Of a stretch of DNA of 45,800 bases, positions 99 to 41,328 are shown in pieces. The notes under the pieces were generated by a model. The model was given only the letters and a program-made list of their open reading frames with translations. It was not told where the DNA came from and did not search any database. The DNA comes from a candidate division Zixibacteria bacterium RBG_16_53_22 (GTDB lineage Bacteria > Zixibacteria > MSB-5A5 > UBA10806): contig MEWP01000016.1 of the NCBI GenBank assembly GCA_001775395.1, forward strand, positions 1-45,800, in the 5' to 3' direction. The position numbers and the translations under genes were made by a program. Each line of letters starts with the position of its first letter. The stretch's first letter is position 1.

Positions 99-109
99 GG
101 AGAATGGAA

Positions 110-1610: not shown

Positions 1611-1620
1611 GGAGAAAGAG

Positions 1621-3698: not shown

Positions 3699-4090
3699 CC
3701 CACCTGGGCAGCGAAAAAACCGATTATGCTTATAGCGCACCGGACAAAGCTCTTCTCGAAACATTTCCTTCGCCGTTTGCGCAGCATCTGGCAACTCGTA
3801 TCCATATTGAGGCGCCGGAATTCACTTCTCTGTGCCCCAAAACCGGCCAGCCTGACTTCGCAACCATCGTCATTGATTACACCCCCGCTGACGCTTGCGT
3901 GGAATCTAAATCGCTGAAACTGTATCTCGGTTCATTCCGTATGCACGGTGAGTTTCATGAGGCGTGTGTGAACCGAATCACCTGCGACCTGGTCGAATTG
4001 CTCAAGCCCATGTGGCTCAAGGTCGAAGGCCGCTTTACGCCGCGCGGGGGCATCCCCTTCTGGCCCACTGCAGAATACTTCAGAGCATAG
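3680..4090 (+). CDS. queF: QueF, NADPH-dependent preQ0 (nitrile) reductase
   Basis: QueF reduces the nitrile of preQ0 to the aminomethyl of preQ1. The 136-residue protein is of the short, unimodal type. It carries SLCPKTGQPDF with catalytic Cys52 and Asp59, the NADPH motif ESKSLKLY (75-82), FHE (His93, Glu94) and the C-terminal RFTPRGGI. The intact NADPH motif favours true reductase over the archaeal amidinotransferase QueF-L. ATG 3680 is preferred over 3665 because GGAG at 3667-3670 is correctly spaced. Its presence predicts preQ1, not preQ0, as the base offered to DpdA. Confidence 0.93.
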   Translation: MPNSHLTHLGSEKTDYAYSAPDKALLETFPSPFAQHLATRIHIEAPEFTSLCPKTGQPDFATIVIDYTPADACVESKSLKLYLGSFRMHGEFHEACVNRITCDLVELLKPMWLKVEGRFTPRGGIPFWPTAEYFRA

Positions 4091-4092
4091 CC

Positions 4093-11335: not shown

Positions 11336-12860
11336 GGTTGCTGCCATGCTCGATGAGGTCAACCTGCTAGAGCGGGTGCGCACTGATCCCATCTGGTTCA
11401 TGGAAGATGTACTGCACATCAAGGGCAAGGGTTGGGACCTGGACATTTGGAGCAAGGAACTCTTCGAGGCAATCGCCGACGTCTACCGCCACAAGAACAA
11501 TCTCCCCACGAAGTACAACCACGAAGGCAAGTCCATGTTCACCGTGCGCGCCATGCACGGTCCTGGGAAGACGTTCAACATGGCGGCGGTCATGCACTGG
11601 TTCTGTTGTGCATTCCGCGGACGCATCGTATGCACCGCCCCAAAAGAGAAGCAGCTTACTACGCGACTATGGCCTGCGTTCCGGAAGATCAATGCCCGTG
11701 CCGGTAAGCTGTACGCATCTCCTATCAAGGTAGACAGTACGAAGATCACCTGGCACGGCGACGAAGACTGGTGCGCGCTGGTAGAGACCGCCAGCCAGCC
11801 GGAGAACCTCGCAGGCTACCATGACGACTACATGCTGTTCCTGGTAGACGAGGCATCCGGCGTATCAGAAGCGCTTTACCCCGTCATCGAGGGCGCGATC
11901 TCCACCGGCACCATCGTCATCCTCGTGCTCATCGGCAACCCGACCAAGAATCAGGGAACCTTCCACGCCAGCCATTGCATACCGAAAGTTGCGAAGCACT
12001 ACTACCAAGTGCACGTGGATCTTGAGAAGACGACCCGCGTTAGTAAAGAATGGGTGCAGCGCATGGTCGATAAGTACGGGCGTAACTCGCCCGTGGTCAA
12101 GGTACGTTGCTACGGGGAGTTTGCGGACAGCGATGAAGCACAGCTCATTCCCTATGCGTGGCTGACCGAAGCACTCGGGCGCGAGGATGTAGGTGCTGGG
12201 ATGCTGCCGCGTCTGCGCGTGACGGTGGACGTAGCTGACGGCGGGGCGAACTTCACCGTGGTCACGGCGGGTATCATCTACGGGCACGACAACATCATAG
12301 TGAAGAAGCAGACCCTACACTCATTCCCTGCCAGCGAGTCCCCGATACTTGCGGCGCAGGCGGCGCATAATATGTACAAGCGGTACGGCGGCTCCGCAGC
12401 GAACGGTGATGACATCGTGGTGGACTCGCTGGGCGTGGGCGCGGGGACTGCCGGCTACCTGATGGAGAAGGGGCTGCCGGTCATCACGTACAAGGGCGGC
12501 GAGTCTAGCGACGATCCCAAGCAGTGGCGCAATCGCCGCACGCAGAGCTACATTGTCATGCGCGACGCACACCGCGACAAACGGATCAGCTACGACGAGG
12601 ACTTCCTGGAGGAGGCTGACGGCGTGGGCGGGGACTGGGACGACTTTACCGCGCAAATGTGCAGCGTGCACACATTGCCCGGAACCGAGCGCGTAGAAGA
12701 CCTGGAAACGAAGAAGGCCATGATGGCGCGCGGCATAACATCCCCTGACCGTGCGGACAGCGTCGCGCTACTGTTCGCCACGCAGACGCCCACCATTCCA
12801 GGACAGCTCGGCAACATCCTGGTGACCGCACAATCGGAAGCAGCAAAGGAGAACTGGTAA
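11328..12860 (+). CDS. terL: terminase large subunit (packaging ATPase and nuclease)
   Basis: The DNA-packaging motor, 510 residues. The N-terminal ATPase has FTVRAMHGPGKT (71-82, a Walker A variant with Pro in the loop) and the Walker B-like FLVDEAS (about 170). A Thr-Gly-Asn coupling segment (LIGNPTKNQG) follows. The C-terminal nuclease begins with VTVDVADGG and carries further acidic residues up to DRADSVALLFA. Length and order match Mu-like and siphophage TerL. The stop overlaps the portal start (TAATG). Confidence 0.93.
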   Translation: MSEVAAMLDEVNLLERVRTDPIWFMEDVLHIKGKGWDLDIWSKELFEAIADVYRHKNNLPTKYNHEGKSMFTVRAMHGPGKTFNMAAVMHWFCCAFRGRIVCTAPKEKQLTTRLWPAFRKINARAGKLYASPIKVDSTKITWHGDEDWCALVETASQPENLAGYHDDYMLFLVDEASGVSEALYPVIEGAISTGTIVILVLIGNPTKNQGTFHASHCIPKVAKHYYQVHVDLEKTTRVSKEWVQRMVDKYGRNSPVVKVRCYGEFADSDEAQLIPYAWLTEALGREDVGAGMLPRLRVTVDVADGGANFTVVTAGIIYGHDNIIVKKQTLHSFPASESPILAAQAAHNMYKRYGGSAANGDDIVVDSLGVGAGTAGYLMEKGLPVITYKGGESSDDPKQWRNRRTQSYIVMRDAHRDKRISYDEDFLEEADGVGGDWDDFTAQMCSVHTLPGTERVEDLETKKAMMARGITSPDRADSVALLFATQTPTIPGQLGNILVTAQSEAAKENW

Positions 12861-15136
12861 TGTGGAAGCTGTTTGCCAAGAAGGTAGAGCCGGTCGTTCC
12901 GAAGCAGGCGGAGGTCGCATGGTCAGAGTCGTCGCTGTACACCGGAGCGGACTTCCCCAAGTACAATCCAGACTCGCTGATCGGGCGCAAGGGCTACGGC
13001 ATCTACCAGAAGATGATGACTGACGAGCAGGTCAAGGCGGTGGTGCGCTTCCGCCGCGACGCGATCACATCCAGGCAGTTCATGTTCGATTGCATACACG
13101 AAGAACTGGGTGACGAGGAAAAAGAGTTCCGCATCGCGCTGTGCGAGCACATCATGAAGCAGATACAAGGCTCCACGTCCGACGCCCTCAACGGCATCTT
13201 GTCGGCCATGTACAACGGCTTCAGCATGACCGAGAAGATTCATGCGCCGATAGGTTATCAGGGCAAGGCATGGATCGGCATCCAGCGTCTGGAGGTTAAG
13301 CCGTGCGATACGTTCTTCTTCCATGTCAACGAGTATGGCCAGATAGAGAAGGTCGCGCAGAAGCTGAACATGCGGGAACAGGACGTCGACCCGAAGAAGT
13401 TCGTTCACTTTGTGCAGAACCCCGACGTAGATAAGCACTACGGGCGCTCCGAGCTGCGCGAGTGCTACCGCGCGTGGTTCTCCAAGGATATGGCAATCAA
13501 GTTTCAGAACATCCATCTGGAGCGGTTCGCTGCGGGCTTTGTCTGGGCGCAACCCAAGGAAGGGAAGACGCTGGTCGCGGGGTCGCAGGAGCTGACTACC
13601 TTGCAAGCTGTAATGACCAACCTGCAAGCGACTTCCGCTATTATACTGCCCGCGAATGTAGACCTGCACATCGAGCACCCCGCGACGACCGACATGTTCG
13701 AGCGCAAGATCGCGCAGGAGGACAAGAGTATTGCCAAGTCGCTGCTGGTGCCGAACCTGCTGGGCATCACCGAGCAGGGCAGCACCGGAGCCTACGCACA
13801 ATCGCAGACGCAGCTTGAGGCGTTCTTCTGGACGCTGGATGCCGACGTGCGCCGCCTTGAGGACGCGCTCAATGAGCAAGTGTTCCGCGAGCTGGGCGAC
13901 CTGAACTGGGGCGATGGCCTGTATCCGCAGTTCAAGTTCAAGCCGATCAGCGAGAAGCGCATGATGGAGATCATCAAGACCTGGACCTCATTGGTCACGG
14001 GCAAGGCGGTAGAGGCCACGGACACCGACGAGAAGCACCTGCGCGAACTGCTGGAGTTTCCGGAGAAGGGCGAACCGATCACCGAGCCAGTTATACAACC
14101 GATGCTCCCTGGTGCAGTTCCGAAGAAAGACGATGATGAAGACGAAGAGCTCTTACCGAATGGGGACAAAAAGCCGAAGGCGGGTACTGATGGTAAGCCG
14201 CTGCTTGAAGAAACTATCATTGGTAAGCTGGGCATCAGTATCAGTGCATTCTCCCGCGCCATGAAGCGAGTGGACTTCGCGGTCATCGCGAACAAGGCCG
14301 ACAACAGCGCGGAGGACGCGGCGTACGAGGTCGCGGCGATCAACAGCGCGGCGGTCGCGCGCCTCGTGGCGCTGGCGGAGGAGCTGAGGCTGGGCACCGC
14401 CGAGGGCAACCCGAACGACATCCAGAAGATACAGTACACCGCCAGTGAGATGTCGGCGCTCAAGGGCGCGGCGACCAAAGGGCTGAAGGAGGCGTGGGCA
14501 ATCGGCGAGTCGCACGCGCGGCGCGAGGTGCAGAAGGCAAAGGGTGCAGATTTCGCAGTCAACGACCTCGCGCTCCAGGACGTAGCCGCCGCGTATCTGA
14601 AGCAAAAGGGCTACTCGCTCGCGGGCGACATCAGCGCCGCCACGCAGAAGACCATCCGCAACATCCTGATGGAGGGCGTCAAGGTCAGCAAGACGCAGGC
14701 TGAGACCAAGCAGGCGATCTACAAGGCGCTGGAGGCCGACGGCATGTTGACCGAAGAGGCTGTGCAGGCTGCCCTCGGCACGACCACGGTGCGCAGCACG
14801 AAGGCGCGCATCGAAACTGCGATACGCACTACCAGCTTCGAGGCGATCAACGAAGCACGCTATCAATTCTTCACTGAGCCGGCACTACAGGGTTTCGTCG
14901 AGGCGCTTGAGTACAGCGCCATACTGGATGACCGCACCACTGAAATATGCTCACAGCTCGACAGCCAGACATTCGGCATAGATGATGAGGTGTGGTCTAC
15001 TTTTCGGCCGCCTAACCATTTCAACTGTCGCAGCATCCTGGTCCCGGTCACGGTTCAGGATACGTGGGAGCGGAGCGACGACCCGACCGTGCTGCCGCAA
15101 AAGGGGTTCGGATTCAGCAAGTGCTGTAACCACTAA
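12860..15136 (+). CDS. portal protein fused to a Mu F-like minor head protein
   Basis: The protein has 758 residues. The first about 450 read as a DUF935/Mu gp29-type portal (the ring through which DNA is packaged), with helical and wing segments and an acidic linker (DDDEDEELL). The C-terminal about 130 residues match the Mu F/SPP1 gp7 minor head domain: EAINEARYQFF, then YSAILDDRTTEICSQLDSQTF, FRPPNHFNCRSILVPV with conserved Cys and His residues. In Mu these are two genes; here no stop separates them. It couples to TerL by overlap. Confidence 0.9.
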   Translation: MWKLFAKKVEPVVPKQAEVAWSESSLYTGADFPKYNPDSLIGRKGYGIYQKMMTDEQVKAVVRFRRDAITSRQFMFDCIHEELGDEEKEFRIALCEHIMKQIQGSTSDALNGILSAMYNGFSMTEKIHAPIGYQGKAWIGIQRLEVKPCDTFFFHVNEYGQIEKVAQKLNMREQDVDPKKFVHFVQNPDVDKHYGRSELRECYRAWFSKDMAIKFQNIHLERFAAGFVWAQPKEGKTLVAGSQELTTLQAVMTNLQATSAIILPANVDLHIEHPATTDMFERKIAQEDKSIAKSLLVPNLLGITEQGSTGAYAQSQTQLEAFFWTLDADVRRLEDALNEQVFRELGDLNWGDGLYPQFKFKPISEKRMMEIIKTWTSLVTGKAVEATDTDEKHLRELLEFPEKGEPITEPVIQPMLPGAVPKKDDDEDEELLPNGDKKPKAGTDGKPLLEETIIGKLGISISAFSRAMKRVDFAVIANKADNSAEDAAYEVAAINSAAVARLVALAEELRLGTAEGNPNDIQKIQYTASEMSALKGAATKGLKEAWAIGESHARREVQKAKGADFAVNDLALQDVAAAYLKQKGYSLAGDISAATQKTIRNILMEGVKVSKTQAETKQAIYKALEADGMLTEEAVQAALGTTTVRSTKARIETAIRTTSFEAINEARYQFFTEPALQGFVEALEYSAILDDRTTEICSQLDSQTFGIDDEVWSTFRPPNHFNCRSILVPVTVQDTWERSDDPTVLPQKGFGFSKCCNH

Positions 15137-15739: not shown

Positions 15740-17239
15740 ATGACTTACGGCTCAGTTACCCTAAATCCTGGTACCGGTGGAGAGGGGGTTGCTACCGATG
15801 AATTCGGTGGTAAGGCATATCAACTTGTCAAGATGCAGCATGGCGCAGAAGGCGTAGCTAATGAGGCCACCGCAGCTACTCCACTTCCAGTAGCCTTCCT
15901 GCGAGATGCTGCAACGCATGTCATTACCACAGCTACGCCACTTGCTGCGGGTGCTACCTACACCTCAGCCTCACACGATAGTTTGATGACTGGTGCATTC
16001 GTCACCCACTATATAATCGCTGACGTTGATGGCACGCACTATTATGAAGAGTCAATCGACAATACCAACTGGGATGTGCTGGACGCTGATACAGTTTTCG
16101 GTGGAACTCCGTTCGAAGAAGCACATCTGGTACAAGCTCGGTATCATCGCACTCGCTATGTGAATGGTGGGACTATCCAGACTGTCTTCCGGCATCAGAT
16201 GATTAGCCGTGTGGTAGGTGCGCCTCATACTATTGGTATCTCCTCAAACGATAACATTATCGCTGGTGATAAGACTCATAATGCTAACGCACCATCAGCA
16301 GATGCTCTTGAATCTCTCGGTCATGTAGCCAAGGCAGCCGCTCCTACTTACAGCGAAGGTGCTGCGGTAATGGCTCGGGTTACGCTTAGTGGTGATCAAG
16401 CAGTTACGCTGGATGGAGAGGCTGTAGTCCTTGGCGCAGGCTCTGCAAACATCGGAGATGTAGATATTCTCAGCATTGCGGCAGGTGATAATAATATCGG
16501 TAACGTAGATATTGTGTCCCTTCCCTCGCTTGTAGCTGGTAGTGCCAACATAGGTGACGTGGACGTATTGACTGTCCCTGCACCATTGTCTACTACTGGT
16601 GGTGGCACGGAAGCAACCGCTCTGCGAGTGACTATTGCCAGTGATTCGACGGGCGTGCTTTCGATAGACGACAACGGCTCTTCTATCACAGTTGATGGAA
16701 CATTCTGGCAAGCGACACAACCTGTCAGCAATGCAGGAACTTTCGCCACACAATCAGCCTCTACTGGTAATGTGGCGCATGATGCTGCTGACTCTGGTAA
16801 TCCGATGAAAGTAGGTGGCATTGCTCGCACTGCCAACCCAACAGTAGTAGCAGCCCTTGACCGCGTGGATGCGTTCTATGACACAGAAGGCAGGCAGATT
16901 ACTCAGCCTTTCGCCCCAAGAGCCTTGACTGTTCACAATACCATCACACTAACAACTACCAGTGAGACCACGCTGATAGCAGCCGCAGCGTCGATCTTCC
17001 ATGACGTGCTTGGTATCTTCATTGCAAATTCTTCTGCGACAGCCGTTACCGTTACTATCAAGGACGCTACAGCGGGCACGACACGGGCAGTCATCTACGC
17101 ACCAGCAGGACAGAATGCCGGCTTCATGCTGCCAATACCGATGACTGCTTCCGCAGCTAACGCTAACTGGACAGCCACACTCTCTGCCGGCGTGTCCTCA
17201 GTCTATGTAACCGCTATTGCAGTCAAGAAGACAGGCTAA
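15740..17239 (+). CDS. repetitive beta-rich virion protein (head fibre or surface protein)
   Basis: The 499-residue protein is rich in Thr, Ala, Gly, Val and Asp. The middle (about 232-278) carries three near-copies of a motif based on NIGDVDILS, and nearby are segments such as WQATQPVS and GNPMKVGGIART that recur in phage surface and fibre proteins. The C-terminal 120 residues form an alternating hydrophobic beta domain. It sits 2 nt downstream of the preceding structural gene. Head-fibre or decoration function is inferred from position and composition. Confidence 0.6.
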   Translation: MTYGSVTLNPGTGGEGVATDEFGGKAYQLVKMQHGAEGVANEATAATPLPVAFLRDAATHVITTATPLAAGATYTSASHDSLMTGAFVTHYIIADVDGTHYYEESIDNTNWDVLDADTVFGGTPFEEAHLVQARYHRTRYVNGGTIQTVFRHQMISRVVGAPHTIGISSNDNIIAGDKTHNANAPSADALESLGHVAKAAAPTYSEGAAVMARVTLSGDQAVTLDGEAVVLGAGSANIGDVDILSIAAGDNNIGNVDIVSLPSLVAGSANIGDVDVLTVPAPLSTTGGGTEATALRVTIASDSTGVLSIDDNGSSITVDGTFWQATQPVSNAGTFATQSASTGNVAHDAADSGNPMKVGGIARTANPTVVAALDRVDAFYDTEGRQITQPFAPRALTVHNTITLTTTSETTLIAAAASIFHDVLGIFIANSSATAVTVTIKDATAGTTRAVIYAPAGQNAGFMLPIPMTASAANANWTATLSAGVSSVYVTAIAVKKTG

Positions 17240-17241
17240 TC

Positions 17242-18447
17242 ATGGCTGATGTAAGCATAGACTCAGCAGTAGGAAATAGCCCTTATGTCTCGCTGGTCTT
17301 TGTCAGCCCGACTGTTGGCTATTGCTTCTATTCTGATTCTGACGGCTTATTCAAATATAGCAAGACTTCGGATAGTGGACAGAGTTGGGGAGCTGGAGTA
17401 ACTATTTCCACCACAGGAGCTATTCTCGCGTATGGCATTTGGTTTGACAAGTGGACTCCCGGAGATAGTGGAACACTGATTCATACTTGCTATTTTGGCT
17501 CAACAACAGATGATCTATTCTGGAGAACACTTGATACCAGCGGGGATGGATTAGGTACAGAGCGTGTTGTCTTTGCCGGAGCAACGTTTACTGCCGCTAG
17601 TGGTGCCAATCCATTCTGTTCCGTCACCAAGACCCGCTCAGGCTACATCTACGTTGCCTACGATGGTGATGCCGGAGTTGAGAAAGGACTATTCCGCTCG
17701 ACAGACTCAGGTACAAGCTGGAGTGCAAATCTCTCTACGACCTTCATCGAAGCTACGCTGGATAAGTGCAAACTCTATCCCGCTTCCAACACCGGAGACA
17801 ACAACGACTGTTGGGCTATTTATGAGGACGTAAGTGCATCTGCCCTGACGTTGAAGATGTGGGATAGCAGCGCAGGTTCGGCAACTGAGTCGGCCACTAT
17901 TCAAGCCTTCACTTCGAACACAACGCTTCCCACTGGTTACTACGGATGGGATGCATCTGTCAGACAAAGTGATGGGCACTTAATACTGGCAAGTGTATCA
18001 GCAAGAGATACAGTCACATCAGACCATCAAGTCTATGACATCAACGGAACTGGTTCAATCACCGGCCTGACAGCAATTACCACAGATATAGATGACCACT
18101 ACTTCCCATCTGTCTATATTGACCAGCTTACCAATGACATCTACGTAGCCTACAATGGCAAGCGTGATGGCAGTGAAGTGATGGATACGACCACCAAGGT
18201 TTATTACACCAAGTCCACGGATGATGGAGCAAGTTGGTCAGCTGGAGATACAGCGTATATGGAAGGTGCGGCTGGCGTAGTATTGCAAACCTTCTGCCCG
18301 AAGATGGGAGATAGATTCTATGTCGGCTGGAGAGTAGGAGCCACACTTCTGGGCAACTATGTAAACAGCGTAGACACCTCTGGTGGTGGTGGGCCTCCTC
18401 CATCCTCTACTTACACAGACACTTTACCTTTTCTAGGAGCAGGCTAA
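17242..18447 (+). CDS. Asp-box beta-propeller virion protein (sialidase/BNR-like repeats)
   Basis: The protein has 401 residues. Three Asp-box motifs S-x-D-x-G-x-x-W are visible: SDSGQSW (about 43), STDSGTSW (about 153) and STDDGASW (about 324). They are separated by strand-rich segments, as in six-bladed propellers of sialidases and BNR-repeat lectins. The end is Gly/Pro/Ser-rich, then a short hydrophobic tail. Located among structural genes, it is probably displayed on the virion and binds or trims host glycans. A catalytic Arg triad cannot be confirmed by eye. Confidence 0.65.
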   Translation: MADVSIDSAVGNSPYVSLVFVSPTVGYCFYSDSDGLFKYSKTSDSGQSWGAGVTISTTGAILAYGIWFDKWTPGDSGTLIHTCYFGSTTDDLFWRTLDTSGDGLGTERVVFAGATFTAASGANPFCSVTKTRSGYIYVAYDGDAGVEKGLFRSTDSGTSWSANLSTTFIEATLDKCKLYPASNTGDNNDCWAIYEDVSASALTLKMWDSSAGSATESATIQAFTSNTTLPTGYYGWDASVRQSDGHLILASVSARDTVTSDHQVYDINGTGSITGLTAITTDIDDHYFPSVYIDQLTNDIYVAYNGKRDGSEVMDTTTKVYYTKSTDDGASWSAGDTAYMEGAAGVVLQTFCPKMGDRFYVGWRVGATLLGNYVNSVDTSGGGGPPPSSTYTDTLPFLGAG

Positions 18448-19566: not shown

Positions 19567-20598
19567 ATGGAACTCGACGCAGAGATATTCGCAACAGGCA
19601 AGTGGAATGGCATGACATTCACCACCGACGACCTGAAACAGATCGCGGAGACCTTCACCGCGCTCGGCGACAAGATGCGCGTGGCGCTGAAGCTCGGACA
19701 TAACGACAAGCAAGCCATGACCGACGGACACCCCGCACTTGGTTGGGTAGACAAGGTGTGGGTCGTCGGCGAGAAGCTGATGGCACACTTCACCGACCTG
19801 CCGGACGTGGTTTACAAGGCGGTGCAGAAGAAGCTCTATAATAATGTCAGCGTTGAGATGGATGTTGACGTGAAACACATGGAAAAGAATTACCCCTATG
19901 TCCTTACAGGGGTAGCGCTACTGGGTGCTGACATACCTGCGGTCAACACTCTGAAAGACCTGACTCACTACATGAGCCGAGGCGCTGAGTTCAGCGTTGG
20001 TCGCCATGCAGTGTTCTCAGCAATCGCAGGGCAATCACAAGGAGGTAATACCATGGAACTGGAACAAGCGACCAAGAAAATCGCCGAGCTGACCACGACC
20101 GTCGCGACCTTCACCACCGACACTGCCCGACTGACTGCTGAGAATGCAGACCTGAAGGCAAAGGTGCTGAAGTTCGAGGCGGACGCATTAGCGAAGAAGG
20201 CAGCGGACGAGAAAGCGCGCATCACAACGAAGCGCGCAGAAGTCACGACCATCTTCGAAGACGGGGTCAAGTCCGGCGCGATCACGCCAGCACAGCGCAC
20301 GCAGTACACCAAGCTGCTGCGCATCGAGGATGACACTGCCCTGGATGCACTGGACATTGCCGACATCAAGGCACTGACCGCAGGCGGCAAGCAGTTCAGC
20401 CGTGAGCAGGGCAGGGAGAAGCAAGCCGATGATGGTAGTGATTTGCCGGTGGACGTTCAAGTGGTGAACGAAATCAATGCCATCCTGGCCAAGAAGGAAG
20501 CAGCAAACTTCGTGGCTGCGCAAGCATTGCTCTTCACCCGTAACCCGAAGCTGGCGCGCGAGTATGCCGACTTCAATGACGCGAAAGGAGGTGCGTAA
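19567..20598 (+). CDS. prohead protease with C-terminal scaffold (Mu gpI-like)
   Basis: The protein has 343 residues. The N-terminal half resembles Mu gpI-type capsid maturation proteases: KLGHNDKQ with a likely catalytic His near 45, then NNVSVEMDVDV with a Ser, and VLTGVALLGADIPAV. The C-terminal half from residue 163 is a long charged coiled coil (QATKKIAELTTTVATF onward) typical of scaffolding. An in-frame ATG at 20053 with its own ribosome site would give free scaffold. It precedes the decoration and capsid genes as in Mu. Confidence 0.85.
   Translation: MELDAEIFATGKWNGMTFTTDDLKQIAETFTALGDKMRVALKLGHNDKQAMTDGHPALGWVDKVWVVGEKLMAHFTDLPDVVYKAVQKKLYNNVSVEMDVDVKHMEKNYPYVLTGVALLGADIPAVNTLKDLTHYMSRGAEFSVGRHAVFSAIAGQSQGGNTMELEQATKKIAELTTTVATFTTDTARLTAENADLKAKVLKFEADALAKKAADEKARITTKRAEVTTIFEDGVKSGAITPAQRTQYTKLLRIEDDTALDALDIADIKALTAGGKQFSREQGREKQADDGSDLPVDVQVVNEINAILAKKEAANFVAAQALLFTRNPKLAREYADFNDAKGGA
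20053..20598 (+). CDS. nested in-frame capsid scaffolding protein
   Basis: Translation from ATG 20053, preceded by AAGGAGG at 20039-20045 with good spacing, yields 181 residues identical to the C-terminal half of the protease. It is a helical coiled coil ending at GGA. This is the same nested arrangement as Mu I/Z and lambda C/Nu3, in which scaffold is made in excess over protease and removed during maturation. The evidence is the strong internal ribosome site and the domain boundary. Confidence 0.75.
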   Translation: MELEQATKKIAELTTTVATFTTDTARLTAENADLKAKVLKFEADALAKKAADEKARITTKRAEVTTIFEDGVKSGAITPAQRTQYTKLLRIEDDTALDALDIADIKALTAGGKQFSREQGREKQADDGSDLPVDVQVVNEINAILAKKEAANFVAAQALLFTRNPKLAREYADFNDAKGGA

Positions 20599-20957
20599 TG
20601 AGCACTGAAAGCGAAAAAGGTACTATCAGCGTTGCCGCAGGTGCCGACCTGTCTGGTTGCCAGTACAAGGCGATCGAAGTGGCGGGTACGGTAGCTGCGG
20701 CGAATGCGCTGGCACTGGGCATCCTGCAAAACAAGCCGCAGATTGGCGAGGGCGCGAGCATCGCGTATGCGGGACACATGAAGGCTTACGTCGGCGGTGC
20801 CGTCACTGCGGGAGTGCGACTGAAGGTCACGACAAGTGGCTGGCTGGTAGTTGTTGCTTCGGGGGACGGCGCAGTCGGCAAGGCTATCAAAGCGGCAGGC
20901 AGTGGAGCGTTGTGCGAGATCGTCGCCAACTTCCCATCCGCCGCTACAACGTACTAA
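20598..20957 (+). CDS. capsid decoration protein (DUF2190-like)
   Basis: The protein has 119 residues, rich in Gly, Ala and Val with short strands (KAIEVAGTV, GILQNKP, GVRLKVTTSGWLVVV), typical of DUF2190 head decoration proteins that stabilise the expanded capsid. AAAGGAGG lies before ATG 20598, which overlaps the protease stop by one base. Its place between protease/scaffold and major capsid matches lambda D order. Confidence 0.75.
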   Translation: MSTESEKGTISVAAGADLSGCQYKAIEVAGTVAAANALALGILQNKPQIGEGASIAYAGHMKAYVGGAVTAGVRLKVTTSGWLVVVASGDGAVGKAIKAAGSGALCEIVANFPSAATTY

Positions 20958-20975: not shown

Positions 20976-21926
20976 ATGGGTTCTGCTATAGGCCGCGACT
21001 TACACATTGACGCAGTGCTTTCTCAGATGGCGATGGGTTATCGCCCCGAGGGATTCATTGCCGATATGATTTTCCCAACCGTATCGGTTCAGAAACAATC
21101 TGACCTGTACCTCGTCTTCGATCGCGGCGACCGCATGCGCGTTGAAGACACAACTCGCGCTCCGGGCACCCCTGCTCGCCGCGTGACCGAGGCTGTCGGC
21201 TCGGCGACCTACTTCGCACGCAACTATGCCCTCGCTGGGGCGGCTGTGCTGGAGGACAAGGTCAACGCCGATCCGATGCAGCTTGCCAATATCGTCAACG
21301 GCAAGGCTACGTTCCTCCTGGACAAGCTCATGCTCGACTGGGAATGGCGCGTGGCTCGCATGGTGACATCTGGCACCAACGTCGGCTCCAGTTCTGCTGT
21401 GGCCTCCGCGTGGAATGGCGCGGGTGTGCCGCTTAACAACATCAATACTGCCATCGACAACGTGCAGGGAGCCAACGGCGTGCGTCCAAACCGTATCGTC
21501 ATGGGCATCAACGCATGGAAGTCTTTCCGCCGTGACAGCACCGTGCGCAATTTGATTTTCGGCACGAACAATGGCGGCGGTTATCCAAATACCAAGCAGG
21601 CCGCATCGCTGTTTGATGTGGATGACATCCTGATCGGCGGAGCCTACCAGAACACCGGACAAGAAGGCGTTGCCGAGTCGTTGGCTTCCATCTGGAACGA
21701 TCAGGTGTTGGTGTACTACGCGCCCCCTGCTCCGACCATCGAGAAGCCGAGCTTTGGCTACAACTTCCGCTGGGCTGCTGCCGGTCTGCCTAACATGCAG
21801 GTCGAGCGGCATCCGTACGATTCCAAGATCAAGGCGGAATTGATCGAGGCGGGCTACTACCAGGACGAGAAGATCACGGGCGCAAGCTACGGCTTCCTGT
21901 TGAAGTCGGTGAACAGCTCAACGTAA
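20976..21926 (+). CDS. major capsid protein
   Basis: The 316-residue protein is expected to adopt the HK97 fold. The N-terminus YRPEGFIADMIFPTVSV and the following DRGDRMRVEDTTRAPGTPARRV are typical of siphophage and Mu-like capsid proteins. A long helix region (ANIVNGKATFLLDKLMLDWEWRVA) serves as the spine helix, and the C-terminal half is strand-rich. AAAGGAGGG at 20959-20967 is a strong ribosome site. A strong hairpin and a terminator follow the gene, as expected for a highly expressed capsid gene. Confidence 0.88.
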   Translation: MGSAIGRDLHIDAVLSQMAMGYRPEGFIADMIFPTVSVQKQSDLYLVFDRGDRMRVEDTTRAPGTPARRVTEAVGSATYFARNYALAGAAVLEDKVNADPMQLANIVNGKATFLLDKLMLDWEWRVARMVTSGTNVGSSSAVASAWNGAGVPLNNINTAIDNVQGANGVRPNRIVMGINAWKSFRRDSTVRNLIFGTNNGGGYPNTKQAASLFDVDDILIGGAYQNTGQEGVAESLASIWNDQVLVYYAPPAPTIEKPSFGYNFRWAAAGLPNMQVERHPYDSKIKAELIEAGYYQDEKITGASYGFLLKSVNSST

Positions 21927-21946: not shown

Positions 21947-21979
21947 GGCGCATCCTCTTCGTGCTCCCGAGGATGCGCC
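21947..21979 (+). terminator. 11-bp hairpin after the capsid gene
   Basis: GGCGCATCCTC (21947-21957) and GAGGATGCGCC (21969-21979) form a perfect stem with an 11-nt loop. There is no U-run, so it may protect the capsid mRNA 3' end or act together with the terminator just downstream. Confidence 0.65.
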
Positions 21980-21985
21980 ATTTCA

Positions 21986-22013
21986 AGGGGAGCTTGTACA
22001 GGCCCCTCTTTTT
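21986..22013 (+). terminator. terminator before the 22027 gene
   Basis: A short stem AGGGG (21986-21990) / CCCCT (22003-22007) followed by TCTTTTT-like sequence to 22013. The ribosome site of the next gene begins immediately after, so partial termination that steps down expression of downstream genes is likely. Confidence 0.55.
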
Positions 22014-22026
22014 AAGGAGAAGTGAA

Positions 22027-22395
22027 ATGAGTCTCACACCAGCAGCAGACGATCCGAACCGCAAGGTAGAATTGCAGCGGAAGAAACAGAATCAAGAAGC
22101 GTATGACGGCAATGCGCAAGACCCGACTCCGACTGCTGCGCAGCTAACCTTTCAAGGTAGCGGCTTGGTAGCAGATGCAGAACACGTGACACAAGAAGAT
22201 GGCGCTGAGGAGCCGCAGTCAGGAACCGACTGGACAGATTACCTAGTGCAGTCTGTCGGCGATCTGGTCCCTCAGTTGTCCGACCTGGATGACACACAGC
22301 TCGAAGAAATGCGCGAAGCAGAACTAGCTGGCAAGGCGCGGGTTACCTTGCTGACCGCAATCGAAGAAGAACTTACTCAACGTCAAGGAGCGTAA
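22027..22395 (+). CDS. hypothetical acidic protein after the capsid gene
   Basis: The protein has 122 residues, with ATG 22027 behind AAGGAGA at 22014-22020. It is acidic, with a hydrophilic first half (Gln, Asn, Asp) and a C-terminal helical region (DLDDTQLEEMREAELAGKARVTLL) resembling the small helical motifs near head-completion proteins. No family is named. It lies between capsid and the giant glycosyltransferase gene. Confidence 0.6.
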   Translation: MSLTPAADDPNRKVELQRKKQNQEAYDGNAQDPTPTAAQLTFQGSGLVADAEHVTQEDGAEEPQSGTDWTDYLVQSVGDLVPQLSDLDDTQLEEMREAELAGKARVTLLTAIEEELTQRQGA

Positions 22396-22396
22396 A

Positions 22397-25345
22397 ATGT
22401 ATCTCGTCATGCACTGCGGTGGTCTTTCATTTAACGGGGACACAATAAAAACCAAGTCCCTTGGTGGCAGCGAGAGTGCTGCCTATTACATGGCGCGCGA
22501 ACTCGCGAAGCTGGGGCACAGCGTCACGCTGTTCACCGAAGCGCAAGAGACCGGCACCTTCGACGGCGTGAAGTACGAGTGGATGGGCAACGTCAGCAAC
22601 GACACCCCGCTCGGCGACCGCTTCACCTTCTACGCGGAGAACACCCCGCACGACGTCTGTATCATCCAACGGCACCCGCGCGCCTTCGAACGCAAATGGG
22701 CGAGCAAGATCAATCTATGGTGGCTGCACGACCTCGCTACATACCACAATAAAGACCTCGCGGTCGGCCATATGTGGAATGTGGACAAGGTGCTCTGCGT
22801 TTCTGAATATCACAAGGCGCAGGTGGTGAAGGTCTACGGACTGCCCGCTGACATCATCGCCGTGGTGCGTAATGCCATAGACATGGCGACGTATGCCATA
22901 GAGCCGATGGTGCTGCAAGACAAGGTAGTTTCTACTAAGCGCGAGCTGGAGGAAGGCACCATTGTCACGCTTCCGGCCACCTACCATCTGTTTTACTCTT
23001 CACGCCCTGAGCGCGGTTTAATCAACCTCGTAAAGCCGGACGGCATCATGGAGCGTCTCAAGAACAAGAACGTCCACTTGCATGTGTGCGGCTATGAGAA
23101 CACCACGCCGCAGATGGAGGCAGAGTATCGCTATCTGTGGGCGCGTTGCGCGGAGCTGCCGAACGTGATGAACCATGGTGCGCTATCCAAGCAAGACCTC
23201 GCGGCATTGCAGAATGCTTGTGATGCATGGGTGTACCCTACCGAGTTTGAGGAGGCCTCCTGTATCACGGCTATGGAAGCGATGGCTGCGGGGTGTGTCA
23301 TCATTGCCAGCGACCTTGCGGCATTGCCCGAGACCTGCGCCGGTGACGAGGACACCGTGCTGATTCCGCTCAAGGATGGCAAGGTGGATATTGACAAGTT
23401 CATCGCCAGCATCCTGGAACCCACTATCGTGGCCAGTAGCCGGCAACGTTACTCGTGGCGGGCGTCAGCAGAATCTCTGCTAGACGAAGTGCAGGGCATC
23501 TTCGCATCAGCGCAGCCCTCCTCGCTGGCACACCATTTCCTTCGCCATTCGGACATCAAGGCGTTCGAGAGTTTGAAGCTCTCCCCTGATGTGTCGGCAT
23601 TCGTCACCGAACTGCTGACCGAGTACAACGTCGCCTATCGCTTCTACCGCGAGGGCACCTACGAGCAGCAGTACAAGGAAGTCTATCAGTACGAAGAAGA
23701 TCGTGGCGTACATTACGGTCCGGAGGATGTCACCGGCACATCACGCTACCAGTGCGTCGCGAACAAGGTAGGTGAACTGCCCGCTGGAAGTCGAGTGTTA
23801 GATTATGGCTGCGCGCACGGACACTACGTCGTGATGCTCGCGAAACAATTCCCGCATCTGGTCTTCGTAGGTGCTGACATCGCACAGAGCAATCTTGATA
23901 AGGCTGCGAAGTGGGCAGCGGACGAGGGGTTGACCAACATCGACTTCTTGAAGGTGGATGGGACACTCGCTGCAATCAGGGATGCGTGCCCGCTATCTGA
24001 TTTCATCATTGCAGCGGAAGTGATAGAGCATGTCGGTGACTCGCAGGGGTATGTAGACACACTCGCTGATTGCCTGCGCAACGCTCAGAGCAAGATGGTT
24101 ATTACCACGCCGTATGGTCCGTGGGAAGCTCAAGGGTATCGCGAGCAGGGTTATCGTCGCGCGCACCTGCATCATTTTGAGCGTGCTGACCTGCAAGAGA
24201 TGCTAGGGCACCATCCCGATTACAAGGTGGTCGCGGCACCGAGCGGCCAGTCCAGATTTCACGCACCGCTGGGCAGTTACATCGTCTCGTTCAGCAAGCC
24301 GACCGAACCGAGCCGCGCGATCAACTACACGCGCAAGGTGATGCAGACCATGCCCGACCAGACGGTATCGTGTTGCATGATTGTGAAGGATGCGGAGCAG
24401 GATATAGTGCGCTGCCTGCGCTCCGTGCTGCCCTTCGTGCAGGAGGTGGTAGTTGGGGTTGACCGCGCCACCCGCGACGCCACCCTGGAACTCCTACGTA
24501 TCCTCGAACGCACTAACCTGCTGGTGGCTTTCCGCATTATTGACCTGGAGCCAGTACAGGAGACCGGCTTCGCGGCAGCGCGCAACGCTACCCTGAGGTA
24601 CGCTTCATGCGACTGGATTCTGTGGATTGACTCGGACGAGGTCCTAAGCAACGCGGAGCATCCGACCAGCCGACTATTGCGTAATTCCATGTATAACGGC
24701 TTCGCGGTGAGACAGCATCATTTCAGCACTGACCCTGTAGGCATCATCAAGGTGGACATGCCCTGCCGTCTGTTCCGCAATCGCAAGGGTATTCAGTTCT
24801 TCGGCGCGGTACACGAGCATCCTGAACTGAAGCTGAACGAGGGGCTCGGTCCGGTATCGCTGATGAGCGGTATGGAGATCGTGCACCACGGCTACGCCAA
24901 CGAGCAGGTGCGGCGCAAGCGATTTGACCGCAATCTGCCGCTGCTGAAGCGCGACCGCGAAGAATTACCAGAGCGTCTATTGGGCAAGTTCCTGTGGCTC
25001 CGCGATCTGGCGCAGCTCACGCAGTACGAGCTTGAGGACAACTGCCTGGACAGGGATGCACTGCCCCAGCGCATCGAGGAAGGCATCAATCTCTGGCTCG
25101 AACTGCTGGCGGCCAAGAACTACCGCATCATACTGGATGCGCTACCCTACTATTCGCAGCTCGCGATCATCAAGGGCGGTGGGGTAGACTTCAGCTTTGT
25201 GGTCAACGCGAACTGGATGGGTGAGGCAAAGCTGGAAGGAGTGCCGAAAGTGGAAGGTTACTTCGCGGACAAGGCGCACGCATTCGCGCTGATGAATGGT
25301 CTGGCGGAAGATAAGTTGCTGGAACTGGACAGGAGGTATCTATGA
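22397..25345 (+). CDS. three-domain glycosyltransferase (GT4)-methyltransferase-glycosyltransferase (GT2)
   Basis: The protein has 982 residues. Domain 1 (about 1-370) is a GT-B, GT4-type glycosyltransferase: LGGSESAAYYMARELAKLGH near 22, and EFEEASCITAMEAMAAGCV (about 283) forms the donor-site E-x7-E helix. Domain 2 (about 455-620) is a SAM-dependent methyltransferase, VLDYGCAHGHY at about 467 being motif I. Domain 3 (about 655-850) is a GT2-type transferase with CCMIVKDAEQDI and WIDSDEVL (the DXD region, about 743). It lies inside the morphogenesis module, coupled to connector genes by 4-nt overlap. It probably decorates virion proteins or host glycans; the target is unknown. Confidence 0.88.
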   Translation: MYLVMHCGGLSFNGDTIKTKSLGGSESAAYYMARELAKLGHSVTLFTEAQETGTFDGVKYEWMGNVSNDTPLGDRFTFYAENTPHDVCIIQRHPRAFERKWASKINLWWLHDLATYHNKDLAVGHMWNVDKVLCVSEYHKAQVVKVYGLPADIIAVVRNAIDMATYAIEPMVLQDKVVSTKRELEEGTIVTLPATYHLFYSSRPERGLINLVKPDGIMERLKNKNVHLHVCGYENTTPQMEAEYRYLWARCAELPNVMNHGALSKQDLAALQNACDAWVYPTEFEEASCITAMEAMAAGCVIIASDLAALPETCAGDEDTVLIPLKDGKVDIDKFIASILEPTIVASSRQRYSWRASAESLLDEVQGIFASAQPSSLAHHFLRHSDIKAFESLKLSPDVSAFVTELLTEYNVAYRFYREGTYEQQYKEVYQYEEDRGVHYGPEDVTGTSRYQCVANKVGELPAGSRVLDYGCAHGHYVVMLAKQFPHLVFVGADIAQSNLDKAAKWAADEGLTNIDFLKVDGTLAAIRDACPLSDFIIAAEVIEHVGDSQGYVDTLADCLRNAQSKMVITTPYGPWEAQGYREQGYRRAHLHHFERADLQEMLGHHPDYKVVAAPSGQSRFHAPLGSYIVSFSKPTEPSRAINYTRKVMQTMPDQTVSCCMIVKDAEQDIVRCLRSVLPFVQEVVVGVDRATRDATLELLRILERTNLLVAFRIIDLEPVQETGFAAARNATLRYASCDWILWIDSDEVLSNAEHPTSRLLRNSMYNGFAVRQHHFSTDPVGIIKVDMPCRLFRNRKGIQFFGAVHEHPELKLNEGLGPVSLMSGMEIVHHGYANEQVRRKRFDRNLPLLKRDREELPERLLGKFLWLRDLAQLTQYELEDNCLDRDALPQRIEEGINLWLELLAAKNYRIILDALPYYSQLAIIKGGGVDFSFVVNANWMGEAKLEGVPKVEGYFADKAHAFALMNGLAEDKLLELDRRYL

Positions 25346-25809
25346 GCACTATCATCACATGGGTAGACGTGACCGCGCGCTATGCGGAGATGGACAAGCT
25401 GCCCAACGGCACCAGCCCGGAGGTACAGGCCAATCTTATCCTGATGGCGGAGGCATCGGTACATAGCCGCTTGGCATCGCGCTACGCCGTGCCGTTCAGC
25501 TCCAGCAACTACACTGCGCGCGACCTTGCCGTGGACACGCTGTATGTACAGGCGCAGCTCACGCGGCAGCCAGAGAAGGCGCAGGCGTTGCAGGAGTCCA
25601 TCGACGCGCGCATCACTGCGTTGGTGAATGGCCAAGCCAACATGATAGATGCGACTGGCGCAGCTGTAGCAACGATGGTCGGGGACACTATCTGGAGCAG
25701 CTCGGAGAATTACCCGCCGGTATTCGGCGTAGGTGACATCGCGAAAGCGGAGGTCAGCTCGGAGCAGCTGCTGGATGAAGCTACCACGCGCGGGGAGTTT
25801 ACTGTATGA
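25342..25809 (+). CDS. head-tail connector (Mu gp36 / DUF1320-like)
   Basis: The protein has 155 residues. The N-terminus WVDVTARYAEMDKL and the helical arrangement that follows (EASVHSRLASRYAVPF, then DLAVDTLYVQAQL) match the DUF1320/adaptor pattern of proteins that dock below the portal. The ribosome site is GGAGG at 25332-25336. It overlaps both neighbours by 4 nt. Function by family resemblance and position. Confidence 0.75.
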   Translation: MSTIITWVDVTARYAEMDKLPNGTSPEVQANLILMAEASVHSRLASRYAVPFSSSNYTARDLAVDTLYVQAQLTRQPEKAQALQESIDARITALVNGQANMIDATGAAVATMVGDTIWSSSENYPPVFGVGDIAKAEVSSEQLLDEATTRGEFTV

Positions 25810-26297
25810 CCGTCTCCGTTCAACTGAACCAGCCCGCAGTCGATGCGTTCAAGGCAGCTCTGAAAGCTGCGCGCGAAGGGTTGAAGAATGATGGCGTCGC
25901 AATGCGGCAGGTTGCTGTGTTTCTGGACTCGTGGGTGCAGCGCAACTTCAAGGGCAAGGGCAGCGGGGTCGGGGGGTGGGTACCGTTTACATATGGTGGC
26001 AGGTTATCGCTGAAGCGCAAAGCGACGGCTTATTCAAAAGAGGCGCGCCACTGGATCAATACGAATGCTGCATTACTCCAGGATACCGGAGCCTTGCGTC
26101 ATTCGTTCCTGCCGTTCATCCGCAAGGGGGTGGCGGGTATTGGCTCCGAGCTACCTTACTCCAAGCCGCATGACGAGGGTGACGACGAGCGCAACATACC
26201 GCAGCGGCGCATTTTACCAGAAGACCGCGAGGTCAGGGTGCAGGTCTTCGAGATACTGGACAACTTTGTACTATTAAAAACGAGGGGGCTGAAATGA
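25806..26297 (+). CDS. phage virion morphogenesis protein (Mu gpG-like)
   Basis: The protein has 163 residues, resembling the phage virion morphogenesis family needed for head-tail joining and tail assembly. It has a helical N-terminus, then the short pattern HWINTNAALLQDTGALRHSF and IPQRRILPEDREV, where a strand ends in R-x-(F/I)-L. It follows the connector and precedes the tail terminator candidate in the standard order. No catalytic role is expected. Confidence 0.8.
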   Translation: MTVSVQLNQPAVDAFKAALKAAREGLKNDGVAMRQVAVFLDSWVQRNFKGKGSGVGGWVPFTYGGRLSLKRKATAYSKEARHWINTNAALLQDTGALRHSFLPFIRKGVAGIGSELPYSKPHDEGDDERNIPQRRILPEDREVRVQVFEILDNFVLLKTRGLK

Positions 26298-26743
26298 TCG
26301 ATGTAAGCACGCTGACTATTGCCCTACATGACAAGCTCATAGACAGCACGGCACTCGACTTGCTACGCTGCGAGCGCGAGCGTAGCGTGCGCATCAACTT
26401 CGACCCCGCGCGCTGTCCGTGGGTCGGGGTATATCCGGGCACGGTGGAGACCAACCCGCGTACGGCAGCGGGCAGTAAGTCGTGGACGGAGCCGGTGGAA
26501 TTGCAAGTAGTCGCGCAGACGGCTTCTTTTGGAAGCGACGGTGCGGACGCAAGTGATGCGCTGGAGGGTTTGCTTAAAGCTATCATGGATGTCATGAACG
26601 AAGACCTGACGCTTGGCATCACAGGTGCGCGGGTCGTCAAGTTCCGGCGCGAGTATCGGTATGTGCAGTTCGACGATGATGGTCAAGGTGACTTGTTTAT
26701 GCCGCAGGCAGTCATCACAATAAGTTTAGAAGTGCGGTCGTAA
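26294..26743 (+). CDS. tail terminator / tail completion-like protein
   Basis: The protein has 149 residues with an alpha/beta layout: helix (LTIALHDKLIDS), strands with a WVGVYPGTVE turn, then helix LEGLLKAIMDVMNE and final strands. Proteins of this size and layout directly before the tail tube gene are usually tail terminators that close the tube and join it to the head. Assignment is from position and size; no unique motif. Confidence 0.55.
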   Translation: MIDVSTLTIALHDKLIDSTALDLLRCERERSVRINFDPARCPWVGVYPGTVETNPRTAAGSKSWTEPVELQVVAQTASFGSDGADASDALEGLLKAIMDVMNEDLTLGITGARVVKFRREYRYVQFDDDGQGDLFMPQAVITISLEVRS

Positions 26744-26762: not shown

Positions 26763-26930
26763 ATGAAGTACTATTGGAGCAGCGAAAGTGGCATGGTACC
26801 TAACATAGGTCACTTTGAAAAGGGTGATGAGGTGTCAGCCGACATCGCTCAGAAATTGCGGGATGCTGGCTATACCATTCGCACGGACGAAAAGTCCGAA
26901 AAGAAGATTACTAAAGGAGAAGAATTATGA
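26763..26930 (+). CDS. small hypothetical protein before the tail tube gene
   Basis: A 55-residue frame with AGGAGG at 26753-26758 before ATG 26763, ending in an ATGA overlap with the tail tube gene. The protein is hydrophilic with an aromatic start (KYYWSS) and charged ends. The FEKGDEVSADIAQKLRDAGY stretch resembles small phage proteins that occur just before tail tube genes, but function is unknown. The overlap and ribosome site support expression. Confidence 0.6.
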   Translation: MKYYWSSESGMVPNIGHFEKGDEVSADIAQKLRDAGYTIRTDEKSEKKITKGEEL

Positions 26931-27892
26931 GCTACGGAATGGATGCAAGAATCGGGATCAGTTTCCAGAACAGCTACGGAACGGCGAATACCGCTTCGAT
27001 GCACTGGCTGGAGCCAGTCAGTGAGTCAGTGGTTTTGAACAAGGCGCAAAATACTCAGAAGGGTGTGCGCGGCATCTACGATAAGGGTCAACTGTACGAA
27101 GGAGTGAATACCATCGCAGGGGACATTGTCATAGAAGCCCGCGCAAACTCGCTGGGTGTATTATTGACATCTGTGTGCAACTCACCGACGACTGTGACCA
27201 GCGCCGCGCTGTATACGCACACATTCAAGCCGCGCGCCGCAGATCACAGTCTGCCAAGTGCAGAGCGCCCATTCACCTATCATAAATTCCTTGGAGACAC
27301 CGGGTCAGCGCAGCAGTACAGTGATATGAATGGCACTGCACTGGAGTTATCCATCAACAATGGTGAATTGATGACAGCAAGGTTGAATATGGTAGGTGGT
27401 TCATTTGATCGCTCCGCAGCTATCGCAGCAACCTACGGTACGACAGAGCCATTGGACTGGTCTATCAGTTCCATGTCGTTTGCTGGCGTCGGCGTATCTA
27501 ACCTTCGCCAATTCACACTCACCCAGGACAATATGCTGGAAGTCCAGCACGTCATTGATACCGATAAATTTCCGGCGCGTATCAAGCGAACTGATATGCG
27601 CAGCATCAATGTGGCCGGTACGATATTATTTGACGATCAAGCACAGGCGGATATATTCCTTGCGCAAACTACGCAAGCTGTCAAGCTGTACATGCGAGGC
27701 AACACTGCTGTGCAATCTGGATACTATGATGCGTTGCTGGTGGATATTCCAGCGTTGCGTTATACGGAGTTCCCGCTTGTGATAGGAGGACCCGGCCAAG
27801 TAGAGGTCAGCTTCAAGGCAGAGGCAACCTACCATCCGTCTTCGGCAACCGCGATTGCTTACGTACTCGCCTGCGGAAAGGCTGGGTTCTAA
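26927..27892 (+). CDS. major tail tube protein
   Basis: The 321-residue protein is strand-rich, with Thr, Ala, Ser and Gly. It follows the connector genes and precedes the tail chaperone frameshift pair, which is the canonical place for the tube protein. Segments such as GIYDKGQLYEGVNTIAGDIVIEARANSLG and the paired halves suggest two tube-like beta domains, consistent with a long siphovirus tail tube subunit. AAAGGAG at 26913-26919 gives strong translation, as needed for an abundant protein. Confidence 0.8.
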   Translation: MSYGMDARIGISFQNSYGTANTASMHWLEPVSESVVLNKAQNTQKGVRGIYDKGQLYEGVNTIAGDIVIEARANSLGVLLTSVCNSPTTVTSAALYTHTFKPRAADHSLPSAERPFTYHKFLGDTGSAQQYSDMNGTALELSINNGELMTARLNMVGGSFDRSAAIAATYGTTEPLDWSISSMSFAGVGVSNLRQFTLTQDNMLEVQHVIDTDKFPARIKRTDMRSINVAGTILFDDQAQADIFLAQTTQAVKLYMRGNTAVQSGYYDALLVDIPALRYTEFPLVIGGPGQVEVSFKAEATYHPSSATAIAYVLACGKAGF

Positions 27893-39750: not shown

Positions 39751-41328
39751 GTGGAAAAGGATAGAGTGCTGGTTAAGCTGGCAGAGCATTTCCTTTCCCT
39801 GTTCGCCGGTCTCGACCGCGCACATGGGACATATAATATACCGACTGATGGCAAGACCATCGAAGGGGAGAAAGTACAAGGGAGACCATACACCGAACAT
39901 AAGCCAGTCACTGCTGACCTATGGTACGCACACCTTGCCGGCACCAAGGGCATCGGCATTATCCCGATCACCGATCAAGCAACTGTTCACTGGGCAGCAA
40001 TAGACGTAGATACCTATCCACTCGACCTGAAGGAGATGGAGGAGAAGCTGACCGCATTGAATCTGCCACTAGTGATCTGCCGTAGCAAGAGCGGCGGGGC
40101 GCACCTGCTGCTGTTCTGCCGCGAACCGATCAAGGCATCACTGGTGCGCACAAAACTGGCAGAGTGGGCGTGCGCTGTGGGCTATCCCAGCGCAGAGATA
40201 TTCCCAAAGCAGAATTCACTGGCCAATAAGACCGATGTGGGCAACTGGCTGAACATGCCCTACTTCAACGTCAAGGATACTAATCGGTACGCTTTGCTGG
40301 AGGGCAAGAAGCTCAAGGTAAAAGAGTTTCTGGAGCTGGCAGAGTCGCGCAAGGTTACGGCGGATGCGCTGCGGGCATTCTCATTAACCGCGCTGGGCGG
40401 CGAAGAGTTTGAGCAGGGGCCGCCTTGCCTGCAATTCTTGGCTGGCAAGGGCTTTCCGCGCGGCAGTAGAAACATCTCACTGTTCAACCTGGCGGTATTC
40501 GCGCGCTTTGCTTTCGAGGATGATTGGAAAGAGAAGGTCGATGAGTATAATCGCTCCCTGATGGACCCACCATTGGCGACCTCCGAGGTGATGAACACCC
40601 TGAAATCCGCCGGTCGCAAGAGCTACTTCTTCACCTGCGACAAGGACCCCATTGCCTCGGTCTGTAACAAAGAGGTGTGTCGCACCCGCAAGTATGGCAT
40701 CGGCGGAAACAGCGACGCCAGTATCGCTCCGATAATGCTGGGCGCGATGACCAAGATCAACAGCGACCCGCCGATCTGGATTATAGACGTCGAGGGTTAT
40801 CGCATCGAGATCACCACCGAAGACCTGGTCAACCAGACGCGATTCCGCAAGCTGTGCATGGATAAGATCAATAAGCTGCCGGCTATGCTGAGGCAGCCGG
40901 TCTGGGAGGCAGCGATTCGGGACCGGCTGAATAATATCGAGGTGGTGGAAGCGCCCCCAGATTCCGGTCCAGAGGGGCAGTTCAGGGTACACCTGGAGAC
41001 CTTCTTGACCCAGCGAGCAGGAGGAAACAACCTCGACGAACTGATAATGGGCAAACCATTCCATTGCGAGAAGGACGTGCCGCCATTGACCATCGCTCAT
41101 GTCGGGCGCACCTTCTTCCGATCACCTGACCTGATTCGCTACCTGGAGCAGCAACACTTTCGCGAGTTCAAGGAGCGACAGATATGGGCACTATTGCGCA
41201 AGACCGGAGCCGAGCACCATGGCTTCACCTTGAAGGGCAAGTATGTGACCGCCTGGAGCGTGCTCAGCTTCGCGGCGCAGAACGAAGAGTTTGCTGTCCC
41301 GACTAACCCTGACGGAGATATGATGTGA
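39751..41328 (+). CDS. archaeo-eukaryotic-type primase (PrimPol-like)
   Basis: The protein has 525 residues. WAAIDVDTYP (Asp85, Asp87) is the AEP catalytic motif I, and RSKSGGAHLLLF (112-123) is the S-G-G-x-H motif II. Later helical and strand regions, including a C-terminal winged-helix-like segment (RQIWALLRKTGAEHHGFTLKGKYV), complete the picture. Such primases start DNA synthesis from nucleotides and may also extend primers. GTG 39751 has only a weak site; the gene overlaps the helicase gene by 4 nt. Confidence 0.85.
   Translation: MEKDRVLVKLAEHFLSLFAGLDRAHGTYNIPTDGKTIEGEKVQGRPYTEHKPVTADLWYAHLAGTKGIGIIPITDQATVHWAAIDVDTYPLDLKEMEEKLTALNLPLVICRSKSGGAHLLLFCREPIKASLVRTKLAEWACAVGYPSAEIFPKQNSLANKTDVGNWLNMPYFNVKDTNRYALLEGKKLKVKEFLELAESRKVTADALRAFSLTALGGEEFEQGPPCLQFLAGKGFPRGSRNISLFNLAVFARFAFEDDWKEKVDEYNRSLMDPPLATSEVMNTLKSAGRKSYFFTCDKDPIASVCNKEVCRTRKYGIGGNSDASIAPIMLGAMTKINSDPPIWIIDVEGYRIEITTEDLVNQTRFRKLCMDKINKLPAMLRQPVWEAAIRDRLNNIEVVEAPPDSGPEGQFRVHLETFLTQRAGGNNLDELIMGKPFHCEKDVPPLTIAHVGRTFFRSPDLIRYLEQQHFREFKERQIWALLRKTGAEHHGFTLKGKYVTAWSVLSFAAQNEEFAVPTNPDGDMM

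Follow-up and report, generated by a model that had tools for sequence, protein, structure and literature searches.

A predicted virion glycan synthase with GT4, methyltransferase and GT2 domains is linked to the major capsid gene of uncultured tailed phages

Glycosylation of phage virions has been described in the literature for actinobacteriophages, where it is explained by immune evasion in animals. It is established for the virions of mycobacteriophages, and glycosylation of the Che8 capsid has been reported (Freeman 2023, as cited in PMC12363180). In the chlorovirus PBCV-1, the three-domain enzyme A064R, which consists of two glycosyltransferases and a methyltransferase, builds the terminal, O-methylated part of the glycan on the major capsid protein (PMC9614988). 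The bacterial enzyme GmaR of Listeria transfers GlcNAc to flagellin (PMC9638930). In the present study, we analyzed a phage protein of 982 aa in which a GT4 domain, a methyltransferase domain and a GT2 domain are joined in a single chain. The results suggested that this protein is probably a soluble enzyme of late expression, whose product would be an O-methylated glycan carried by a head protein; the major capsid protein (MCP) is the most likely acceptor.

The window, which is the whole stretch of DNA analyzed here (45.8 kb), was a complete contig with an exact terminal repeat of 81 bp, and the same contig was present in IMG/VR as IMGVR_UViG_2708742752_000002. These two observations indicated that the window is probably a complete, terminally redundant phage genome. 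Short tandem repeats resembling GCCAAGCCCGCAGCTAAG were located immediately before the terminal repeat (45680-45730), and a phage primase with a TOTE-type archaeo-eukaryotic primase domain (AEP-TOTE) and PriCT-1 was found at 39751-41328. The contig was binned within a bacterial assembly of 3.86 Mb, and this binning is no proof of the host. A search of phages for sequence nearly identical to the window region gave zero matches. A search of the whole-genome relatives of the MAG revealed no further three-domain copy and returned mostly bacterial GT2 proteins of ~900 aa.

The head-tail genes were all encoded on the forward (+) strand. Upstream of the enzyme were a Mu-type portal fused to a Mu F-like protein (12860..15136), a Mu-I-like head maturation protease (19567..20598; Pfam and phrog_976), a scaffold-like protein (20598..20957; phrog_673) and the MCP of 316 aa (20976..21926; phrog_1005, E 1.1e-58). 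The MCP was followed by an acidic ORF of 144 aa (21961..22395), which was found in 10 loci, and the enzyme (22397..25345) started 1 nt after this ORF. Downstream of the enzyme, we found a conserved neck-region protein (25342..25809; found in 60 loci), a Neck1/tail completion protein of 163 aa (25806..26297; phrog_26), a second conserved neck-region protein (26294..26743; found in 53 loci) and the tail tube protein (26927..27892; Phage_tube_2 in Pfam, phrog_290). The sequence-only reading had described the enzyme as sitting directly between capsid and connector genes and as coupled to its neighbor by a 4-nt overlap. The overlap was confirmed, since the enzyme ends at 25345 and the next gene begins at 25342. 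The position between the capsid and connector genes also held, but the direct adjacency to the MCP did not, because the 144-aa ORF intervenes. In the interval between the portal and the protease, a 401-aa ORF (17242-18447) contained three Asp-box-like motifs (SDSGQSW, STDSGTSW and STDDGASW), comparable to those of sialidase-type beta-propellers. Together with the preceding 499-aa ORF (15740-17239), it has the appearance of an insertion encoding a virion appendage, and neither ORF recurred in the other loci of the 97 analyzed.

The same reading had assigned three catalytic domains to one protein, and this assignment was upheld by an open reading frame with an ATG start and by Pfam matches that all exceeded the curated cut-offs, namely Glyco_transf_4 (residues 23-163), Glyco_trans_1_4 (219-329), Methyltransf_23 (460-606) and Glycos_transf_2 (658-751). 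The N-terminal domain (residues 1-370; 22397..23506) was classified as GT4 with a GT-B fold by its family profiles (PF13439 and PF13692), the EX7E motif and its GT-B fold neighbors in Foldseek, the best of which was MshA (3c4q, E 6.9e-16). The central domain (residues about 441-640; 23717..24316) showed the PF13489 profile (E 1.3e-13) and the glycine-rich SAM motif of a class I SAM methyltransferase. The third domain, with the helices that follow it (residues 650-880; 24344..25036), was a GmaR/SunS-like GT2 domain of GT-A fold, as indicated by the PF00535 match and the DxD motif. The family-specific C-terminal domain (residues 881-982; 25037..25345), defined from the alignment and the model, was the least conserved, with a mean identity of 26%. 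Among 45 aligned members, position 286 of the EX7E motif was E in 38 and D in 7, and E294 was present in 45/45; G471 of the methyltransferase DxGxxxG motif was present in 43/45; and both D745/D747/E748 of the GT2 DxDE motif and the VHEHPE motif were present in 45/45. The glycosyltransferase catalytic residues were kept in members down to about 30% identity to the window protein, which points to conserved active sites rather than an accidental fusion or a defunct gene.

Structure prediction, which had been named as a check, gave a confident AlphaFold2 model built from 45 sequences (pLDDT 91.6, pTM 0.91), and the domains are thus predicted to pack as one enzyme. Foldseek recovered MshA-type GT-B structures for the N-terminal part and SunS and ThuS for the GT2 domain. 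When the profile of the GT2 domain was compared with PDB sequences, the top ranks were GmaR (8.5e-30), SunS (4.8e-25) and ThuS/7msk (2e-22). On this sequence comparison, the nearest solved relatives of the GT2 domain are protein or peptide glycosyltransferases. The enzyme was also compared with the SunS peptide S-glycosyltransferase model (TIGR04195); it scored 57.4 bits against an equivalog cut-off of 350 and is not a SunS.

The window also carried a queuosine locus at 104-5028, in agreement with the queuosine-pathway setting that had been proposed for this phage. It comprised QueC, a radical-SAM protein in the QueE position, QueD/PTPS, FolE and a phrog_887 gene, which encodes a DpdA-like queuine tRNA-ribosyltransferase. 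DNA glycosyltransferases of the T4 type exist, and the presence of QueC, QueD, FolE and the DpdA-like protein raises the alternative that the enzyme glycosylates phage DNA, perhaps on a preQ0-type base supplied by this locus. We considered this explanation highly improbable because the enzyme gene belongs to the structural module and is distant from the queuosine locus, and because its GT2 domain resembles protein transferases.

We collected homologous loci from IMG/VR by a protein query (11 loci) and by an alignment query (the best 80 of 206 relatives) and from GTDB genomes (10 loci); after removal of repeats, 97 loci were analyzed, which are not independent and include several near-duplicates. 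Several bacterial phyla were represented among the genomes into which clade members had been binned or integrated, and L105 is a prophage-like copy on a contig of 982 kb. A search for the same domain order and neighbors had been suggested, and the GT4-MT-GT2 order was indeed kept in 91 of the 97 loci, with the same MCP family upstream in 83. Natural variants included GT4-GT2 proteins without the methyltransferase (L109-L111), a GT4-MT form (L242) and two tandem GT4-GT2 copies downstream of an MCP, again with no methyltransferase (L189, 2122-7128). In the tree, the node at L109-L111, on which gain versus loss of the methyltransferase turns, had low support and a long outgroup branch. Among 50,697 phage genome records, none aligned over 80% of the enzyme, and partial glycosyltransferase matches occurred in 16. 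The predicted viral structures included other multi-domain GT/MT proteins that belong to uncultured phages.

The linkage between the enzyme and the MCP was close. In the 83 loci with an MCP of the window's family, the capsid gene ended 55-1732 bp (median 329) upstream of the enzyme. The remaining 14 loci comprised seven that lacked upstream sequence (L027, L038, L060, L084, L101, L107 and L108), three in which an MCP of the unrelated family phrog_1328 was located immediately upstream (L015, L109 and L111) and four with no recognized MCP upstream (L104, L110, L112 and L113), among which only L104 was a full three-domain member. In the reverse scan, all 51 loci that had this MCP (at least 48% identity) and at least 3.5 kb of downstream sequence carried the enzyme. 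A second scan, in which the MCP identity was lowered to 32%, found the glycosyltransferase domains of the enzyme in 52/52 loci and all three domains in 50; the two scans have many contigs in common. A scan that started from the phrog_1328 MCP gave no relatives. The linkage could reflect a core late operon instead of a shared substrate. As an internal control, the ORFs between the portal and the protease (251, 499, 401, 90 and 192 aa) recurred in only 1-2 of the 97 loci, indicating that the persistence of the enzyme is not mere general synteny. Among cultured phages, more distant relatives that share the MCP fold (RDJL1, CRP-6, RHph_Y60 and Ottawa) had no annotated glycosyltransferase at that place, so the enzyme is not required by the MCP fold; none of the four was among the 16 matching phage records. 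A Ser close to the C-terminus of the MCP, conserved in 77 of 78 MCPs, was considered as an acceptor site; the Ser also occurs in two of the four relatives without the glycosyltransferase and provides no evidence on this point.

The genes that phages carry for glycosyltransferases often act on the host, as with GtrABC and TarP. The enzyme might accordingly alter a host surface glycan, such as LPS, teichoic acid or an S-layer sugar, and so change receptors late in infection, blocking superinfection or the re-adsorption of progeny. The NCBIfam near matches, which include LPS and EPS glycosyltransferases, fit this explanation, and the pathways that make LPS and EPS commonly employ GT4 and GT2 enzymes. 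However, no transmembrane segment was apparent in the enzyme, no flippase or lipid-carrier gene was found among the annotated neighbors, and the combination of a membrane-embedded transferase with a flippase partner that marks GtrABC-type systems is thus missing here. In almost every locus, the gene is part of the head-tail operon, and its GT2 domain is closest to protein or peptide transferases. We therefore regarded a host-directed role as distinctly unlikely. The linkage to the MCP, the occurrence beside a second MCP family and the protein-directed relatives of the GT2 domain together favored decoration of a virion protein over the host surface, as the sequence-only reading had proposed, and a virion target appears likely, with the glycosylated protein and its identity still putative.

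Several virion proteins could serve as the acceptor. The MCP is the favored candidate because it is the head protein adjoining the enzyme in most loci, and we hold this assignment tentatively, at slightly below an even chance. The acceptor might instead be another virion protein, namely the 144-aa protein, a neck protein or the fiber-like proteins encoded downstream; this is a sub-case of decoration of the virion, and the likelihoods given for the two overlap. The 144-aa ORF lies between the MCP and the enzyme, and tail tube proteins of mycobacteriophages have been reported to be glycosylated (PMC12363180). In many relatives, moreover, a coupled gene for a protein of about 175 aa and genes for large repeat proteins stand between the enzyme and the neck. 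Among the 60 loci with an identified neck gene, an additional 0.4-7.3 kb separated the enzyme from the neck in 37. The protein of about 175 aa (152-192 aa) followed the enzyme in 33 loci, and its gene usually overlapped the enzyme end. Its model had a pLDDT of 77, the only significant PDB match was a tail chain of the archaeal virus HFTV1 (E 1.4e-6), and its profile matched a weak 'tail fiber' family. Large repeat-rich, fiber-like proteins (e.g. 424-1070 aa) were frequent downstream, and radical SAM proteins were sometimes present. These intervening proteins look like appendages of the particle, which fits a module for virion decoration, and they do not single out the acceptor. Against a non-MCP acceptor, no fiber insert was present between the enzyme and the neck in 23 of the 60 loci, the window among them, and the 144-aa ORF was detected in only 10 loci, whereas the MCP is the head gene in most. 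An acceptor other than the MCP was thus judged unlikely, though less so than a host glycan.

Two further features near the enzyme were recorded. In loci L031-L100, the interval between the enzyme and the neck genes contained large variable repeat proteins, with repeats resembling RTLSDSIxxxD, and Ser/Thr-rich fiber-like proteins. In addition, 11 radical-SAM-like proteins adjoining the enzyme in seven loci (e.g. L069:7409-8098) formed a cluster, one member of which was tested; they possibly carry out a further modification of a virion protein or sugar.

For the preferred reading, in which a head protein is decorated, we propose the following order of events. The enzyme, expressed from the capsid-neck operon, would modify newly synthesized head proteins in the cytoplasm, ahead of assembly or while it proceeds; its late expression is what we infer from the position in the operon only. 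The GmaR/SunS-like GT2 domain may transfer the first sugar onto an amino-acid side chain in a head protein, for which the MCP is the leading candidate. This first step is placed with the GT2 domain because the nearest relatives of that domain are protein glycosyltransferases, and we give it about an even chance. The GT4 domain would then extend the glycan by one or more sugars, and the methyltransferase would O-methylate it as a cap. The capping step is proposed by analogy with PBCV-1 A064R and because the absence of the methyltransferase in L109-L111 fits a tailoring role; there is good reason to expect that the methyl group is placed on the sugar and not on the protein.

Taken further, these results would describe a large clade of uncultured tailed phages whose capsids are obligatorily glycosylated, and mostly O-methylated, by one three-domain enzyme co-inherited with the MCP, so that the sugar coat is a core part of the head and not an optional decoration. 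We advance this broader view with caution, as a possibility that falls a little short of even. For environmental phages, a glycan enzyme linked to the capsid almost universally would call for a reason other than immune evasion in animals, such as particle stability, diffusion, adhesion or protease resistance. If the proposal is true, it offers a defined single-chain enzyme for the direct study of phage capsid glycosylation.

The sequence-only reading had not recognized a three-domain enzyme of this kind; precedents exist in PBCV-1 A064R and in the GT2-MT fusion gp108 of Che8. Like the phage enzyme, A064R combines two glycosyltransferases and one class I methyltransferase in one viral polypeptide. 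It differs in belonging to a eukaryotic virus, in its length (638 aa), in its GT-GT-MT order as opposed to GT4-MT-GT2 and in its other glycosyltransferase families; moreover, it elongates an existing N-glycan, and placement of its gene beside the MCP is not described. Che8 is a tailed phage with its own glycosyltransferases (gp108-gp110), but these are smaller, separate proteins encoded at the right genome end and not in the head module, and gp110 is GT25-like. In sequence, the domains of the enzyme were not closely related to these proteins: the GT2 match to gp108 was weak, and gp109 and gp110 gave none. GmaR, which ranked first among the solved structures for the GT2 domain, shares the arrangement of a GT2 domain followed by helices, and its substrate polymerizes after modification; it has no GT4 or methyltransferase domain, and its antirepressor domain is absent from the phage enzyme. 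SunS and ThuS share the GT2 fold and sequence similarity but are single-glycosyltransferase proteins that act on small peptides. The podovirus genomes ctKR88 and ctxSa4 from Manatee Spring (MW202524 and MW202718; L024 and L118) carry, immediately downstream of the MCP, a gene for a fused GT2-TPR-GT4 protein together with additional GT and MT genes. Their domain order is reversed, the methyltransferase is on a separate gene, the head module is that of a podovirus and the glycan cluster is uncharacterized; this cluster is a separate case of GT/MT placement directly after the MCP. Neither the phage collection nor the open-literature searches yielded a single-chain GT4-MT-GT2 enzyme with linkage to a tailed-phage MCP. 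Virion glycosylation and a three-domain capsid-glycan enzyme are thus already known, and what is new here is the single-chain GT4-MT-GT2 enzyme and its linkage to the MCP of tailed phages.
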